Positions 3,798-42,802 of a stretch of 43,375 nt of DNA are shown here, one piece after another. A program made the translations under genes and the position numbers. How positions within the stretch are numbered: position 1 is the first letter of the stretch; each line of letters begins with the position of its first letter. Origin of the DNA: a virus. The notes beneath the pieces are model-generated. The model was not told where the DNA came from. It did no database searches and saw only the letters and a list, made by a program, of their open reading frames with translations. The stretch is taken from IMG/VR virus record IMGVR_UViG_3300009130_000055, positions 1-43,375 of that record; one strand, written 5' to 3'.

Positions 3798-3829
3798 GAG
3801 GGGAGTTAATTCTCCCCTTATAATTTTTT
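3798..3829. terminator. Bidirectional terminator between convergent genes
   Basis: The stem AGGGGAG/CTCCCCT (3799-3805/3812-3818) has a 6-base loop. On the plus strand it is followed by ATAATTTTTTA (T-run 3824-3829), and on the minus strand by a short CTTTTC. It lies between the guanylate kinase stop (3793) and the stop of the minus-strand gene (3818-3820), whose last base pair is in the stem. It therefore serves both converging transcripts, and best the plus one. Confidence 0.8.
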
Positions 3830-4330
3830 ATCTTGTCCTTTTTTTCTTACTTCATCTGCCATATCTTTATCGGCTTTACCCCAAGTACCAGATGATTTAG
3901 TTAAAAATGAATTTACTCTAGCATATCCCCATTGTTGCTGAGTTGCTCCTGGTCTATGACCTGATTTCCATGCAGCCATACCTCTTCTCATTATTACTCT
4001 AATAATTTCAATACTAACTCCAGTTTCTTCAGCTTTCTTTTTAAGAGCTTTTTCAATCTTAGCATCGTCAATAGGACCTTTGTTCATGCTTTGTTTGTTC
4101 TCTTCAACTTTCTTGAACTTTTTATTGTATTTCTTAGTATGTTTACTGGTTTTTACATCACCTTCTTCTCTAGCTTCTTCATCTCCTGGAGCTTCTTTAT
4201 ATGCTTTAGGATCAGAATCAGATTTTTTACCCTGTTTCTTGAACTGATCTTTTCTATCTTCCTTATCCTCTTTATCAACACCTTTATAGTAGGCTTTTGA
4301 TTCTTCTAAATAAAACTTTAATGATTTCAT
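3818..4330 (-). CDS. DUF5824-like protein with capsid-targeting-like leader
   Basis: This 170-aa protein starts MKSLKFYLEESKA, a member of the shared leader group (M-K/R-S/N-L-x-x-Y-I/L-x-E) that resembles T4 internal-protein capsid-targeting sequences. Residues about 20-95 are very charged (Lys/Glu/Asp) and probably disordered. The C-terminal part has VIMRRGMAAWKSGHRPGATQ followed by QQWGYARVNSF and GTWGKADKDMA. I recognise this pattern from a domain of unknown function widespread in marine phages (DUF5824, from memory). The gene is last in an operon with overlapping starts and stops (TAATG at 4330-4332) and ends in the bidirectional terminator. Inference: a DNA-associated internal head protein whose leader is cut after Glu. 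No catalytic function is claimed. Confidence 0.7.
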   Translation of the reverse strand: MKSLKFYLEESKAYYKGVDKEDKEDRKDQFKKQGKKSDSDPKAYKEAPGDEEAREEGDVKTSKHTKKYNKKFKKVEENKQSMNKGPIDDAKIEKALKKKAEETGVSIEIIRVIMRRGMAAWKSGHRPGATQQQWGYARVNSFLTKSSGTWGKADKDMADEVRKKGQDKKL

Positions 4331-4815
4331 TATTTAAAATATTTTTGGTATGCTTCTCCGCTCTTAAAGAAGTTAACATCAAAGCATTTTTTAGATTTTA
4401 GTATATCATCAATCAATTTATCACTTTTCCCAATTATACCAGCATATGCGTATGGTATTTCAGATAAAGGAGTTCTTTCGATATGAGTATTTGTTTCACT
4501 ATCGTAAATCCACCAATGCTCAACTGGTGTTAATGATTCAGTAAACATATAACCTGCCACAGGATAATATCTAGTATCTTCTTCCATTAAATCAGCATAG
4601 TCTGCTTCTTTTTTAACATAATTCCAAGAATTAGTTTCACAGCGGTTTTTATCACCAGAAGGAGAATACTTATATTTATCTTTAGTAGGAATAATAAAAG
4701 AAAAGTTAGATAATTTAGATGCTTTTTTAAGAAGATTCTTATTCTTCTTATTAATATCTTGTATCGTGTCTTTACTAGATTTAGCTTCTGTTATGTAATC
4801 GTATAAAGATTTCAT
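4330..4815 (-). CDS. Leader-bearing protein with Cys/His pattern, possible internal head protein
   Basis: This 161-aa protein starts MKSLYDYITEAKSS, the clearest example of the shared leader; ITE-A fits the I/L-x-E cleavage rule of the T4 gp21 protease. After a basic helical linker, the body has RCETNSWNY (C59, N62), YYPVAGYMF, then VEHWWIYDS (H100, D105). A Cys followed about 40 residues later by His-Trp and Asp is the order seen in papain/NlpC-like cysteine hydrolases and in some uncharacterised phage families, but similarity is too weak for an enzyme call. Its ATG overlaps the EndoVII-like stop (ATGA) and its stop overlaps the next ATG (TAATG). Its placement suggests packaging in the head. 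Confidence 0.65.
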   Translation of the reverse strand: MKSLYDYITEAKSSKDTIQDINKKNKNLLKKASKLSNFSFIIPTKDKYKYSPSGDKNRCETNSWNYVKKEADYADLMEEDTRYYPVAGYMFTESLTPVEHWWIYDSETNTHIERTPLSEIPYAYAGIIGKSDKLIDDILKSKKCFDVNFFKSGEAYQKYFK

Positions 4816-5315
4816 TTCTTATATTCAGGAGTAACTCCGTATTTTTCAAATAATTTTTCTAATGCTTTAGTCATTCTACCTCTACTATAATGAGGACATT
4901 TCTGTTTCCCATCTATAGCTTTAAAAAGTTTATTCCAACTACTTTTCATTAGAACTGGTGCTTTAGGTTTCTCAGATGGATGAATAAGCAATTCATCTTC
5001 TGTATGCTGTCTATTTTCTTCAAGATAATCAGCAAGGTTTCTTAATGCAGAAATAATATCAGTATGCTTTTCAAGACCCATGCGCTTAAAAGAATTAGTA
5101 ACTTTTCCTTCCCATGCATTTGCTTGGAAATTAATAGCACCTCTTACACAACCTTTCCCAGTTTCATCTGGTAATTCAGCTTTTAATTTATGCTGGTGGT
5201 CTATACAAAATTTATCAAGATCATAATACTTACCAAGTATAGGGCAAATACCATCTTGATCTTTCCACCATTTTTCTCTAAGTTCTTTTAAGTCTTTACT
5301 GCTTAACTGTATCAT
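4812..5315 (-). CDS. 49: Recombination endonuclease VII-like (T4 gp49 family) nuclease
   Basis: This 167-aa protein carries the EndoVII core: DGICPILGKYYDLDKFCIDH followed by QH, then GCVRGAINFQANAWEGKV and a C-terminal helical region. It aligns with T4 NGKCLICQREL, LDHDHEL and KVRGLLCNLCNAAEGQ. The His-Me finger residues D39, H40, H42 and N66 are present. EndoVII cuts Holliday junctions and branched DNA so that it can be packaged. Three of the four T4 zinc cysteines are missing (CPIL instead of CLIC; INFQAN instead of CNLCN), so the structural zinc is probably lost. Unlike its neighbours it has no capsid-targeting leader (it starts MIQLSSKDLKEL), so it likely acts in the cell rather than in the head. 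Confidence 0.8.
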   Translation of the reverse strand: MIQLSSKDLKELREKWWKDQDGICPILGKYYDLDKFCIDHQHKLKAELPDETGKGCVRGAINFQANAWEGKVTNSFKRMGLEKHTDIISALRNLADYLEENRQHTEDELLIHPSEKPKAPVLMKSSWNKLFKAIDGKQKCPHYSRGRMTKALEKLFEKYGVTPEYKK

Positions 5316-5326
5316 TTATTTTACAT

Positions 5327-5680
5327 TTACTCGTACTCGTCTTCGTATTCTTTAATATATGGCCAAGGATTATCTACACCAAAATGCTTTGATATTTCTG
5401 GTAATAGTTTCTTATTCTTAGCATCAAGCTTATCATATTCGCTATTATTTCTAGTATTCATCATCTTCTGATAATTTAATAGATATTTCTCAACTGTTTT
5501 ATAACCATTAAGTTGTTCTACATAAGATGCTCTAGAATTCATAGCAGTAGGAGCTGCTTTATCTGTCTTTAATAGTCTATCAATTTCTTTAATCTTTTTC
5601 TTAATATACGAAATCTTCTCTTTAAGAGACATTTGCTTACTACCCTTAGCTTCTGTTATGTAATAAGATAAACTCTTCAT
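5327..5680 (-). CDS. Small leader-bearing helical protein, possible internal head protein
   Basis: This 117-aa protein starts MKSLSYYITEAKGSKQ, almost the same first 12 residues as the 161-aa protein two genes downstream. The rest is charged and helical (EKISYIKKKIKEIDRLLKTD) and ends in an acidic EYEDEYE. No domain is recognised. The bodies of the leader-bearing proteins do not resemble each other, so conservation is limited to the leader, as expected for a targeting tag. It overlaps the upstream gene by TAATG and is separated from the EndoVII-like gene by 11 bases. The predicted leader cleavage would follow ITE at residue 10. Confidence 0.65.
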   Translation of the reverse strand: MKSLSYYITEAKGSKQMSLKEKISYIKKKIKEIDRLLKTDKAAPTAMNSRASYVEQLNGYKTVEKYLLNYQKMMNTRNNSEYDKLDAKNKKLLPEISKHFGVDNPWPYIKEYEDEYE

Positions 5681-6087
5681 TACATTTTACCTTCCTTTTT
5701 ATAATTCTTGATAGCTTTATTGTACATACGCTTAATCATTTTAAGCATTTCAAACCCATCGTCGAACTGCCAGTACTGCTCACTATCATCACCTTTTTCT
5801 AGGTAATCATTCATATCGAATGTTTCTTCTTTATTCTCCCATTTATAGCCATTTCCCATTTCTTTATACTTAATAGTAAGTATATTGTTCTTAAACTCTA
5901 TTGGACTATAAACCATAGGAGCCTCCCAAGTTGAAGTGCTATCAATTACTTCTACTGGATCTCCATCTTTATCAATAGCTGAAGCAATAATCTTATTAAT
6001 ATCTTTTACTGCTTTATCTACTTTCTTAATATCAGTCTTTGCTGATTCTAAGATTAATGATTCTTTAATTTGTTGTAAATTTCTCAT
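5680..6087 (-). CDS. Small hypothetical protein, likely internal head protein
   Basis: This 135-aa protein starts MRNLQQIKESLILESAKTD, a variant of the leader in which I-L-E near residue 14 could be the processing site. The body has a helical stretch (VDKAVKDINKIIASAI), then a beta-rich segment (YSPIEFKNNILTIKYKEM), and a basic end (YNKAIKNYKKEGKM). The centre resembles that of the 130-aa protein at the right end of the window in general style (a small alpha-beta protein with an ILTIKY-like strand), but I would not call them homologues. It sits in an unbroken chain of TAATG overlaps with both neighbours. Function unknown. Confidence 0.6.
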   Translation of the reverse strand: MRNLQQIKESLILESAKTDIKKVDKAVKDINKIIASAIDKDGDPVEVIDSTSTWEAPMVYSPIEFKNNILTIKYKEMGNGYKWENKEETFDMNDYLEKGDDSEQYWQFDDGFEMLKMIKRMYNKAIKNYKKEGKM

Positions 6088-6671
6088 TAGTATGCTAACT
6101 TAATTTCAAGCTTATTTCTTTTCTTTAAAAGCTTCTCAATTTTTGACTCTATTTTATTAAGTTCTTTTCCGTACTTATTGGCTTCTTTATCATTCCAATC
6201 ATCTCCTAAACGACCAGCTTCTTCTTCCATATCTCTGTAAGTTTCAGCTCTGTCAGTATAAAGATCATTAAGCTCAGAATGAATATCGTCTAAATCAAGT
6301 TCAAGTTTTTTACGTTGTTTACCATAAACTCTTTTAGATTTAGCAAAATCTTCAGCTTTTTTCTGCTTATCGCGTTTCATTTTAGCACTTCTTAAAGCAA
6401 TCATAACTGGATCATTATATGTCATCTCAGTTAAAATGTTTTCTAGAAGTTCCCCGTTTTCGTCAAACATTTCTTCGGGTGCAATTTTATAGTACCCTAT
6501 AATATCTCCTACGATATCAGCATGATCACTGTTATTCATATCATAGTTAGTTTTAATAAAATCTTTAACGTCTTTATCAGAAGGTCTATTACCTAGAACT
6601 TTTTTAACTTTAGTAATAGAATTATACTTGTGTTTTCTTTCCTCAGTAAGATATGTGTATAAATTTCTCAT
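6087..6671 (-). CDS. Leader-bearing coiled-coil protein, possible internal head protein
   Basis: This 194-aa protein starts MRNLYTYLTEERKHKYN; LTE at residues 8-10 fits the leader and protease-site pattern. Residues about 95-194 are a long Lys/Glu/Leu-rich region with heptad character (LELDLDDIHSELNDLYTDRA and EANKYGKELNKIESKIEKLL), predicted as coiled coil. The N-terminal domain (KKVLGNRPSDKDVKDFIKTN) is helical and unrecognised. Inference: a packaged, possibly DNA-compacting or scaffold-like protein. Translation is coupled to the next gene by TAATG; the upstream gene ends only 5 bases before this start. Confidence 0.6.
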   Translation of the reverse strand: MRNLYTYLTEERKHKYNSITKVKKVLGNRPSDKDVKDFIKTNYDMNNSDHADIVGDIIGYYKIAPEEMFDENGELLENILTEMTYNDPVMIALRSAKMKRDKQKKAEDFAKSKRVYGKQRKKLELDLDDIHSELNDLYTDRAETYRDMEEEAGRLGDDWNDKEANKYGKELNKIESKIEKLLKKRNKLEIKLAY

Positions 6672-6676
6672 GATTA

Positions 6677-7333
6677 TTATTTTTTTCCACCTCCACCGAT
6701 AGCAGCACCAATAGCAGTACCTACTAATCTACTTGTAAGTACATTATAAAGTGGAGAATTTTCTTTAATTCCTAATACTCTAGCAATAATTTTACCGATT
6801 GATTTACCGAAAGCAAGTCCACCTAAACCACCTAAAACAGAACCTAAAACACCTTCGTTAAGTTCATTAGATTCTCCATTGAATAGTAATTCTTCTATAG
6901 CGTTTATTTCTTCCTCTGTAAATTCATATGCTTCTACTAAATTATCACTTAGTATTTCAGCAATCTCTGTAGCAAGGTCTCTAGTAGATGTACCTACTAA
7001 TTTAGAAATAACTTTTAAACTTTTTTCATCTACATCTAAAGTTTCTTCATCATATCTAACATCTTCTAATTCGTCTAATAAAATAGTAGATTTTGCTCCC
7101 GAAAGATTATAAGAAGATTTAAGTGTTTCCCATACTTCTTGAAGTACGCTTACAGAATCTACTAGAACTGCCATTTTCTTTTTAGCTTCTTCTAATTCTT
7201 TGTAAACGTCTTTAAACTTCTTTTTATTACTTGTCGGTATATCACCAGAACCTACTTCCCCGTTAGATGGTAATGATACATCGCCCATCCCGTTAGTATT
7301 AGAGACAGTAGCAGTTTCTTTTAATTTTCTCAT
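6677..7333 (-). CDS. Protein with glycine-zipper C-terminus, possible membrane-active internal protein
   Basis: This 218-aa protein, first in the leader operon, starts MRKLKETATVSNTNGMGD, a weaker match to the leader. The middle (residues about 40-150) is acidic and helical (FKDVYKELEEAKKKMAVLVD). The end holds two Gly/Ala-rich hydrophobic segments, GVLGSVLGGLGGLAFGKSIG and LVGTAIGAAIGGGGKK, typical of glycine zippers that pack in membranes. Such segments occur in phage proteins that cross or open membranes during DNA entry. Together with the gene's position this suggests an ejected membrane-active protein, but a structural role in the head is equally possible. No enzymatic motif is visible. 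Confidence 0.6.
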   Translation of the reverse strand: MRKLKETATVSNTNGMGDVSLPSNGEVGSGDIPTSNKKKFKDVYKELEEAKKKMAVLVDSVSVLQEVWETLKSSYNLSGAKSTILLDELEDVRYDEETLDVDEKSLKVISKLVGTSTRDLATEIAEILSDNLVEAYEFTEEEINAIEELLFNGESNELNEGVLGSVLGGLGGLAFGKSIGKIIARVLGIKENSPLYNVLTSRLVGTAIGAAIGGGGKK

Positions 7334-30700: not shown

Positions 30701-31327
30701 AAAATCTATAGAAGTGTAGTTAAATGTTGAGCTTTCTACACCAATAGATGTAGTATTAGATTCTTCGTCTAGTCTTAAATAAGCACAATTCCCATTAGCT
30801 ACACCTTCGTTAGCATTTAAGTATATGCTACCTGGACCTCTTAAATACTCTATAGAATCTTCATTAGAACCAGATACTACATAGAACTGAGATAAACTTC
30901 CATTAGTAGAAGTAACATTAATGCTAGTTTGTGGCGTTTCTCCTACATGAGAAACATTAAAGTCGTCGCTCAAGTTAAAGTTTATGTTAGCTATTCTATT
31001 ATTTGTAGTACCGAAAGACATTATTTGGTCATTACCTTCAAATATAGTCGATTCTGTTATTGGGCCACCTAACTTAATTTCTCCACTGTTTAATGTTAAC
31101 CCGTTATTAGCTGCACTAATTCCACCTATAGAAATAATATCCCATGTATTTCCAGATTTTAGTAAATAAAGAACATCTTCAGACTCTACGTAAACCTGTA
31201 AACCTACATATGATCTACCGTCTGTGATAATTCTATCTCTTGCTGCTATATCAGTTGCTATGTATCTGTCTGCATCTACAGGCAAATTAGTAGCAACTCT
31301 TACGCCAAAAGGCAAATTTAATGACAT
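27797..31327 (-). CDS. Long modular tail fibre with repeated IPSIGMIK linkers
   Basis: This 1176-aa protein starts MSLNLPFGVRVATNLPVDAD and has a head domain (SYVGLQVYVESEDVLYLLK) and an NNGLTLNSGEIKLGG module. It then has five copies of a linker of the form DW-x-TDD/ND-x-x-IPSIGM-I/V-K-x-N (about 30.6, 30.2, 29.6, 29.0 and 28.7 kb), separating beta-rich domains. The C-terminal 250 residues (from about 925) begin GLTWQEIIE, then an Ig-like strand segment and a PYFFG-to-WFAIPATS domain shared with the 426-aa neighbour. The stretch near 29.0-30.1 kb is richer in GC than the rest, a sign of exchange. Likely the main receptor-binding fibre. Confidence 0.75.
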   Translation of the reverse strand: MSLNLPFGVRVATNLPVDADRYIATDIAARDRIITDGRSYVGLQVYVESEDVLYLLKSGNTWDIISIGGISAANNGLTLNSGEIKLGGPITESTIFEGNDQIMSFGTTNNRIANINFNLSDDFNVSHVGETPQTSINVTSTNGSLSQFYVVSGSNEDSIEYLRGPGSIYLNANEGVANGNCAYLRLDEESNTTSIGVESSTFNYTSIDFNGGGVKVNDSILGLGLNYSDYTIDEANIDWPTDDNHIPSIGMIKANTLASDRIILPLSPDLSVTEDGRIDFATYENAGGFAVYSYDKTVNDYDGYGTFSATSFDAGVAFYKGDGAGNNTDTWNIVAEEDAIRMTNSTGFGAKFFNSNSYINVDWSTDDDHIPSIGMIKENVSSDNVYNTDGSLTSNRQLLGDNKDLALGTLASPIGELVQYSTKGSFSFNLSDGSSNGNYPEFHNVSTGDSMGILGFYGHRSATSVESSQPYDAVSFRAGSISSGNWFGFYDYKASNGSIYFDAADNDINGWADIRLSPTASKWFSVSSRAEGASNARSTLYANTSGGWVFGDNEYGKGVSYEDATDYANIDWATDDNRIPSIGMVKENTSSSNIFDSDGTLTGNRELLGDNNSLSLGTPASEISEFRQYTIGTESINRFHGSYNTFMHSGDIMNSQFSLISVPDTVGNIARLNLTAGSNSNTSYYDSTVAVGKGGIVIHSASGVDGQDGEGGTLEMVGNKVYLKVRTSAYGTHQGITLDKTGPINVFNDTNEGAKYDSSTAYASVDWSTDNDHIPSIGMIKDNTLGFSSDYFFIDDYNGNIKVHRGNGDLYIAESNGTNGTDWTKLNQLNINTNGINFNSYFGDGTGNILNTVGLTLNPTEIITQNTTGTGFKYSASSDYSAIDWATDDNHIPSIGMIKDNISSGNAGVYDRASPTNVQFGAIAPGTDLTGLTWQEIIELATVEYQLPSFTSFSFSGQSTTIEVGEDLSGIKTANWSTQYPGNITPNTIDIDDVNSSSNLATGLDNTGSASIDIGTVDNSVPVTQIYRITGENTENNSFTRDYTISSIYPYFFGTVSSGGAAPGANRPTADQSLINAGTKVLNGSNGTISISFNSTSDDYLWFAIPATSASKNVWFINALNTGSIGGAVSPGGNLFPDFDSVNIDSPTVLWNGVPYKIYISNFQTAVTDSMQLRNS

Positions 31328-31342
31328 ATTATACTTTTATTT

Positions 31343-32623
31343 TTAGCTTATTGTTACTCTGTATGTAGCATCTTCCGGATACCCATTTACTCCATTTACA
31401 GCAGACCAAGTTTCGTATGCTACTGGAGTTCCTCCACCGTCATTAACATCAAACGATGAAGAAGCAAATGTACTAGTTACATCAGCATTTAAACTTTCTA
31501 CATACAGAACAGATATATTCTTTCCAGCTGGTATAGAGAAATAAACTTCATTTACTCCAGCCGGTATATTAATATCAAATGTTCCAGTATTATTACTACT
31601 TAAGAAATCTTTATTTACAGATGCTCTAACTTCTGTAGAATTTGTTGGTATACTATTAGACCCACTGAATGCATAATATCTACCAAAAAATGGAGAAGTT
31701 TGAGATGTTTCTGTACCAGAATTTCTAGAAGAATCTAGATTATTTGATACGTTATTTTTAGAATCATAATATAATCCTACACCAGCAGAATGACTAACAG
31801 TTGCTATCCAGTTTTGAGTTGCTGTTGCTGGAAATTGAGCAAATGATGGATTGCTTCCATCAAGAACTACAGATAATGATGAAGTAGTAACACTTATACC
31901 AGAATTAGGGATCCCCGGTCCATTAAAAATATAAACTATAGGGTCACCTACTAAAGAAGGTCCAGAAGAACCATTACCATTAGTTATAGATCCTTTAGAA
32001 AAACTGGCTGTTAAAGATACACTCATAGGCGTACCTATTTCTACTATATTAGGTGCATCATCTACTAAAGATAATGATGCTTGACTTGATATGCTTGCCA
32101 GTACAGTAGGAAATGCATAAGTATCAATAAAATTAGATAAAGTCATTCCTTTCATATCAGAAACCGTAGCACCTGAAGTATTAAACCCAGGTGAAGAAAT
32201 TGTATCGTCTAAATCTGTTACGTAAGATATTGCATCTTTTCTGCTAGTTATTTGCCATGCACCATCAACGTATGCAGCTATAGCAGATACTGGAGTATTT
32301 AGTACTTGGATATCTTTTATATATGCATAGTCACCTTCAGTTGCAGGGTTAGGCAATTCCGGTAAAGTATTTACTATTAAAAGAGAATTACTGGTAGGTA
32401 TACTAGCTAAAGCAGTATTAATAGTATTAAGAGCAGCTGTTACAGTTGCTCCTTCTACTAAAGAGGTATTAGTGATATTATCAGACGATAAAGTAATATT
32501 ACCACTATCTATTTGTATATTTACATCTTCTATTTTACCTAAAAGACACTCAAAATTTTTATTTATTACTTCTCTATCTGCTGATATAGAACCAGTGCCT
32601 TTAAGTTTTATTACACAACTCAT
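31343..32623 (-). CDS. Fibre protein with LKGT N-terminus and shared C-terminal domain
   Basis: This 426-aa protein starts MSCVIKLKGTGSISADREVI and shares this opening with the 174-aa protein. An early stretch (GDYAYIKDIQVLNTPVSAIA then AYVDGAW) resembles a fibre head. From about residue 155 (DMKGMTLSNFIDTYAFP) to the end, the order GMTLSNFIDxYxFP, then an Ig-like part, then FFGRYYAFSGS and VYFSIPAGKNISVLYVESL, matches the last 250 residues of the 1176-aa fibre. A shared C-terminal domain on otherwise different fibres suggests a common receptor-binding or trimerisation module. Its start (32623) overlaps the stop of the upstream 1146-aa gene (32620, ATGA). Confidence 0.7.
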   Translation of the reverse strand: MSCVIKLKGTGSISADREVINKNFECLLGKIEDVNIQIDSGNITLSSDNITNTSLVEGATVTAALNTINTALASIPTSNSLLIVNTLPELPNPATEGDYAYIKDIQVLNTPVSAIAAYVDGAWQITSRKDAISYVTDLDDTISSPGFNTSGATVSDMKGMTLSNFIDTYAFPTVLASISSQASLSLVDDAPNIVEIGTPMSVSLTASFSKGSITNGNGSSGPSLVGDPIVYIFNGPGIPNSGISVTTSSLSVVLDGSNPSFAQFPATATQNWIATVSHSAGVGLYYDSKNNVSNNLDSSRNSGTETSQTSPFFGRYYAFSGSNSIPTNSTEVRASVNKDFLSSNNTGTFDINIPAGVNEVYFSIPAGKNISVLYVESLNADVTSTFASSSFDVNDGGGTPVAYETWSAVNGVNGYPEDATYRVTIS

Positions 32624-42409: not shown

Positions 42410-42802
42410 TTATTTCTTCATTTTCTTTATAGCCCAAGAAATTTCTTGTGCTAAATAATTTTGCATTTCTTTTCTGATATTATCTTGTTTTACTCCTTTT
42501 TCAATATCATAACGTTCTTCTTGCATAAGAGAATAAAAAGCAGTAGTATCCATAGTAACTGTATTCTTTTCATCATCTAGGTCATAAAAATCGAAATATA
42601 TTTGGATATAATCACTTGTATCATTTGGGTTTCTTGCGATAATTTCTACCTCAGTAGTGCCTTTATTACCAAAACTATTACCAGCTCCGTTAATTTCAAT
42701 GTTCTTATATGGCGAACCTTTCCATTTAAACATAGGCTCAATCCATTTCTTGTGGTTTGTGCTAAACTTTAATTTTTCTGTAATATATTGTAATGATTTC
42801 AT
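42410..42802 (-). CDS. Leader-bearing small hypothetical protein
   Basis: This 130-aa protein starts MKSLQYITEKLKFSTNHKKW; ITE at residues 7-9 fits the leader of the 3.8-7.3 kb group, although the gene is 35 kb away. The body is small and alpha-beta (KGTTEVEIIARNPNDTSDYI then QIYFDFYDL), with a helical, basic end (AQEISWAIKKMKK). No family is recognised. The dispersed position argues that the leader is a functional tag rather than a product of local tandem duplication. It stands between an unidentified protein gene and a terminator. Confidence 0.6.
   Translation of the reverse strand: MKSLQYITEKLKFSTNHKKWIEPMFKWKGSPYKNIEINGAGNSFGNKGTTEVEIIARNPNDTSDYIQIYFDFYDLDDEKNTVTMDTTAFYSLMQEERYDIEKGVKQDNIRKEMQNYLAQEISWAIKKMKK

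Follow-up and report, generated by a model that had tools for sequence, protein, structure and literature searches.

A short leader shared by five otherwise unrelated proteins of a viral DNA record is, judged by comparison of sequences, most likely a capsid targeting sequence of the T4 type, much expanded in huge phages. Taken as a whole, from packaging to injection, a capsid targeting sequence like that of the T4 internal proteins is the best explanation of the shared N-terminus, and one that we regard as highly probable. The leader, its register, its N-terminal enrichment, its genome-specific dialect, the repeats of a protease fusion and the protease of relatives can all be seen directly in the sequences. 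Support for the T4-type reading is strong because the leader keeps the register of T4 IPIII, the relative G017 has an S77 protease together with the same dialect, enrichment extends over eleven genomes, the core recurs as repeats in the protease fusion, and annotations of phage PAU point the same way. Literature searches found no paper on this leader in huge phages, and none that reports proteomics on virions of this phage or of a close relative.

A common leader on unrelated proteins

The window (the whole 43,375-bp stretch analysed) is a fragment of a viral genome, whose minus strand encodes a T4-like tail and baseplate module and which contains no protease, scaffold or capsid genes. Five of its proteins open with MK/R-S/N-L-x-x-Y-I/L-x-E, four of them with the N-termini MKSLKFYLEESK (3818-4330), MKSLYDYITEAK (4330-4815), MKSLSYYITEAK (5327-5680) and MRNLYTYLTEER (6087-6671). 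The relevant genes are as follows.

3818..4330, minus strand: leader cargo 1, MKSLKFYLEE followed by a DUF5824 protein, 170 aa; leader codons 4301-4330
4330..4815, minus strand: leader cargo 2, MKSLYDYITE followed by a 151-aa body; leader codons 4786-4815
4812..5315, minus strand: endonuclease VII (T4 gp49-like), phrog_423 1e-27; inside the cluster, no leader, not leader cargo
5327..5680, minus strand: leader cargo 3, MKSLSYYITE followed by a coiled-coil-like body, 117 aa; leader codons 5651-5680
5680..6087, minus strand: doubtful leader, MRNLQQIKESLILE, 135-aa protein; [IL]xE at residues 7-9 and 12-14, core absent
6087..6671, minus strand: leader cargo 4, MRNLYTYLTE followed by domains A and B; leader codons 6642-6671
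6677..7333, minus strand: glycine-zipper protein, N-terminus MRKLKETATVSN; leader core absent
42410..42802, minus strand: leader cargo 5, MKSLQYITE (one residue shorter) followed by a 121-aa body; leader codons 42776-42802

We scored the leader core, phi-x-x-[FY]-[ILVM]-x-E, in the first 17 residues of each protein and took the expectation from internal windows of the same proteins. Four of the 33 window genes had it, against 0.2 expected (p = 4e-5); the fifth leader, MKSLQYITEK, is one residue shorter and is missed by this count. A sequence-only reading of the window had proposed a common leader on at least five proteins that differ beyond it. The open reading frames, strands and leaders are as it described, and all-against-all BLASTP of the bodies of the core-bearing window proteins revealed no mutual similarity. 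The same reading had placed a leader-bearing set at 3818-7333, and there four proteins stand, but the endonuclease VII and the glycine-zipper protein lack a leader, and the protein at 5680-6087, which begins MRNLQQIKESLILESAK, has an imperfect (degenerate) form only. Among the cargo proteins that it named, the DUF5824-like protein (PF19141, 2e-14, 54.2 bits against a curated cut-off of 25) and one with a coiled-coil-like body (5327-5680) carry the leader. The supposed Cys/His cargo is likely the endonuclease VII, whose G017 orthologue (63% identical) likewise has no leader, and the glycine-zipper protein is without the core here, whereas its orthologues in G004 and G026 have it. Several of these phages keep a glycine-zipper protein close to the tail tube gene (window 6677-7333; LR756500 282850-283227; G004 106688-107056), with a leader that comes and goes.

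The body of cargo 2 has no known relatives and no match in phages. In cargo 4, domain A is common to G017 75751-76329 and domain B to G022 31136-31543; an internal ILTE-M site lies between the two and could be a second cut.

The likeness of the leaders might in principle arise at the level of DNA, by recent leader duplication, gene conversion or a shared translation-start element, and two window leaders do share an identical stretch of 18 bases, TTACATAACAGAAGCTAA. Identical leader residues of the window, however, use identical codons at a frequency of 0.50, with 0.53 expected from codon usage, and codon identity is close to this expectation in all ten genomes tested, while distant phages keep the same register with different residues. 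Codon identity near chance indicates that the likeness is held at the protein level, by selection on the peptide and not by recent copying of DNA, and we consider a DNA-level origin extremely improbable. A DNA pattern search of IMG/VR for MKSLxx[FY]I[AST]EA gave six matches, all by chance.

The leader keeps the register of T4 internal proteins

In the capsid targeting sequence of T4 IPIII, residues 4 and 7 serve targeting and residues 8 and 10 processing, and Asp at residue 10 blocks processing (PMC9026906). At these positions the window leaders have L4, Y7, I/L8 and E10. The targeting sequence of T4 IPI, IPII and IPIII (MKTYQEFIAEA, cut by gp21) is likewise 10 residues long, with the same register (hydrophobic 4, aromatic 7, I/L 8, E 10), and is likewise fused to unrelated bodies; relatives of the window encode an S77 protease. 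Thus the targeting positions 4 and 7, [IL]-x-E with E at 10 and the unrelated bodies are all found here, and the earlier suggestion that the T4 rule of cutting after [IL]-x-E fits these proteins is strongly supported by the comparison. T4 itself has a further hypothetical protein, gp61.1 (L159 18966-19130, 54 aa), with a capsid-targeting-like start, MKTFKEFIKED, close to the known internal-protein leaders. T4 gp57B compared by phmmer with 74 cargo proteins gave no match.

When the last leader position was left free, it was E in 62% of cases (79% with K/R at residue 2), compared with 10% internally, and D was depleted, in agreement with the block by Asp at residue 10 of T4; the residue that follows is mostly A, S, N or G. 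This bears on the view that the leader is an amphipathic helix addressed elsewhere (host membrane, tail or baseplate, replication compartment) and that [IL]xE is incidental. The leaders are indeed short and amphipathic with a positive charge at residue 2, and tail genes surround many leader genes. Such a helix would not account for the strong preference for E over D followed by a small A/S/N/G, nor for the same core in a protease-scaffold fusion or the internal-capsid annotation in PAU (both below), and we hold this view to be very unlikely.

Enrichment in related huge phages

A gp6-like baseplate protein of the window matches huge phages, namely LR756500 (462 kb, 43% identity), Lak phages, Tenacibaculum phages and two Sphingomonas phage records. 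A scan of IMG/VR with a gp6 alignment (a single-protein gp6 scan gave nothing) found G017 (171,834 bp), which has orthologues of 24 window genes, nearly all colinear, with the tail tube 78% and gp6 71% identical. Of its 210 genes, 14 have motif-bearing N-termini where 1.6 were expected (p=2e-9), and most of these are in the MKSL/MKSY dialect of the window (MKSLNYFLKES, MKSLNEFLNEA, MKSYKSFLNE). G017 also encodes a gp21-type S77 protease, which is absent from the 43-kb window and is present in many other relatives as well. Structural genes are colinear between the two, whereas leader genes are mobile: in G017 the DUF5824 cargo is found about 75 kb away, and leader genes of G017 also sit where the window has none.

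The core was found at the N-termini of 10/64 proteins in G001, 16/152 in G005, 13/171 in G009, 30/670 in LR756500 and 18/111 in G022 (p=9e-20), and was enriched there also in G004, G018, G023, G026 and the Kyanoviridae phage C48C1. Enrichment was not significant in Tenacibaculum phage PTm5 (5/301), the tail-region fragment G019 had no leader core at 45 N-termini, and the first 50 kb of crAss001, a control whose head is of an unrelated type (P22-like portal), had the leader in none of 47 genes. Among the 2087 proteins of the eleven related genomes pooled, 6.8% have a core that starts within the first ten residues; each ten-residue bin farther along accounts for about 0.7%, so that N-termini are enriched roughly ten-fold. 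The number of different proteins tagged reaches about 20 per genome in related huge phages, and motif hits number 7-30 per genome, against 3 in the part of T4 examined. Because few huge phages are in culture, little has been learned of the proteins that they carry into cells; a leader that can be recognised in the sequence would supply lists of candidate injected proteins for many phages never cultured.

The core takes two sharp positions, giving leaders of 10 residues (window clade and T4) or 13; this second class, and the different cargo, set the relatives apart from the T4 internal proteins. Dialect and length track the genome and not the cargo (p=2e-4 each), and only 3 of 20 cross-clade cargo orthologues have the same leader length. 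Residues outside the core are alike across unrelated bodies of one genome and unlike across orthologous bodies of different genomes.

Other phages also load proteins into their heads. In phage P1 the N-terminus of DarB sends a counter-defence protein into the head, as proposed here, but the available part of that source reports no such ten-residue core, and P1 is believed to lack a scaffold of its own (PMC9024508). The heads of the jumbo phages phiKZ and SPN3US contain numerous injected proteins that a prohead protease processes (PMC5694885), as would those of the window relatives; their propeptides mostly exceed 100 residues and their protease belongs to the S80 family (PMC5694885). Propeptides of the phiKZ inner-body type were ruled out for the present leaders, which mostly have 10 or 13 residues.

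Leader core repeats in a protease-scaffold fusion

The S77 protease was found in LR756500, PTm5, G004, G005, G009, G017, G022, G023, G026 and others, and in LR756500, G004, G005, G009, G017, G022, G023 and G026 it is fused to a long C-terminal region. This scaffold-like region, carrying the leader core, is a further difference from T4. In all nine genomes examined that have the fusion (PTm5 included), this protein exceeds all others in copies of the leader core; that of G009 holds 11 copies (0.7 expected, p=2e-10). The fusions of G005 and G009 contain 9-10 tandem 14-residue repeats, such as IEYSEYVAEKVDQN, and that of G017 has IENWSEHVTETVSG repeats, which hold the leader core or something close to it; LR756500 and PTm5 have fewer copies, and these are less regular. 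Residue -1 is mostly N in cargo leaders and mostly A or T in scaffold repeats, which means that the leader does not copy the repeat exactly. A structure model of the protease-scaffold protein was of low confidence (pLDDT 47), with helical repeats. LR756500 (154951-155127) and G025 (417679-417855) each have a second match that resembles S77 proteases, a weak one (135-aa frame).

The major capsid proteins of LR756500, G004, G005, G009, G022 and G023 begin with a short [LI]-x-E-[AS] segment (LINE-A/S, MINE-A, LLNE-S). Together with the core repeats, these segments suggest that assembly and cutting follow one grammar in leader and scaffold unit. Newly made cargo would bind the prohead core through its leader, by the hydrophobic residue 4 and the aromatic residue 7, the core in relatives probably being the scaffold-like region fused to the gp21-type serine protease, with its 14-residue helical repeats of the same motif. 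As the prohead matures, the protease would cleave behind [IL]-x-E in scaffold and leaders alike; the scaffold pieces would exit, and the cargo would remain in the head with the DNA and enter the host at infection. A more far-reaching proposal, to which we give slightly less than even credence, is that the scaffold of huge T4-like phages is a repeat polymer whose 14-residue unit templates a clade-specific address code, so that a one-unit mimic on any gene would bring head loading and release by the same protease. Such phages would own dozens of injected proteins, open to exchange, and sequence alone would suffice to list them. The link between repeats and scaffold offers a testable account of how a capsid targeting sequence of ten residues can work.

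Leaders of phage PAU

Sphingomonas phage PAU, an isolated phage of the same wider group, resembles the window in having a shared leader on many proteins and is related to it through the gp6-like protein. Its leader, MKT[IL]SKLYEAKLNEA, is of a different dialect, and its protease and scaffold are separate genes, unlike the fusion of G017 and the other relatives above. Eighteen PAU proteins share MK-x-[IL]-x-x-L-[YF]-E, and many of their genes cluster around the portal, protease, scaffold and capsid genes. Four of the five proteins annotated as internal capsid proteins have this leader (p=5e-5). The record gives no basis for the annotation, which was probably not made from the leader, since the fifth such protein lacks it.

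PAU gp152, annotated as scaffolding, also has the PAU leader, as would be expected if the leader were a scaffold-binding or assembly tag on proteins that act only in head assembly, like T4 gp67 and gp68, and are then degraded or expelled, not injected. T4 gp22, gp67 and gp68 are indeed core proteins also cut by gp21 (PMC9026906; PMC5694885). Yet the abundance and variety of the cargo, with up to about 20 proteins per genome, speak against this role, and its genes move, as that of DUF5824 does in G017; enzyme-like cargo (Acb1-like, PNK3P, GNAT, NMNAT-like, ATP-grasp) is also unlike assembly factors. Assembly without injection is therefore unlikely, and we favour a targeting sequence for proteins that stay in the head.

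Cargo

Orthologues of the DUF5824 protein (3818-4330) have leaders in G001 (MKHYKQFLKES), G017 (MKSLNEFLNEK), G009 and C48C1, and many family members across IMG/VR begin with such a leader, some of them, at about 84 residues, having little beyond leader and domain. Such leaders make it likely that DUF5824 is a head-packaged protein that recurs among these phages. Its model is helical, with a domain pLDDT of about 90; a fold search with it found no structure in the PDB at E below 2.9, and a literature search found no paper on the family. In some marine phages a cytidylyltransferase-like protein has DUF5824 as its C-terminal domain, and elsewhere the domain is tiny and stands alone behind a leader (loci L049-L131, e.g. 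L049 2399-4189).

Further cargo in relatives includes a PNK 3'-phosphatase (PNK3P), GNAT enzymes, an NMNAT-like transferase, ATP-grasp enzymes, a DUF2201 metallopeptidase, LRR and DUF285 repeat proteins, DUF5661, DUF5856 and DUF5824. In T4, IPI blocks a restriction enzyme, and one E. coli strain cannot be infected without IPIII (PMC3012670; PMC9391042), which makes counter-defence a reasonable candidate role for the cargo. We infer that the cargo is packaged, cleaved and injected, and would act as early counter-defence or take-over proteins; the Acb1-like and PNK-phosphatase-like cargo of relatives helps the view of cargo as injected effectors. The Acb1-like 2H phosphoesterase of L053:6934-7476 scores 28.5 bits against a 27-bit cut-off, and the match in G001 is weaker. 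Cargo of this kind points to counter-defence enzymes, Acb1-like for example, delivered ready-made. Acb1-like (anti-CBASS) 2H phosphoesterases with head-packaging-like leaders occur in two phages, at L156:10883-11410 (G001) and L053:6934-7476.
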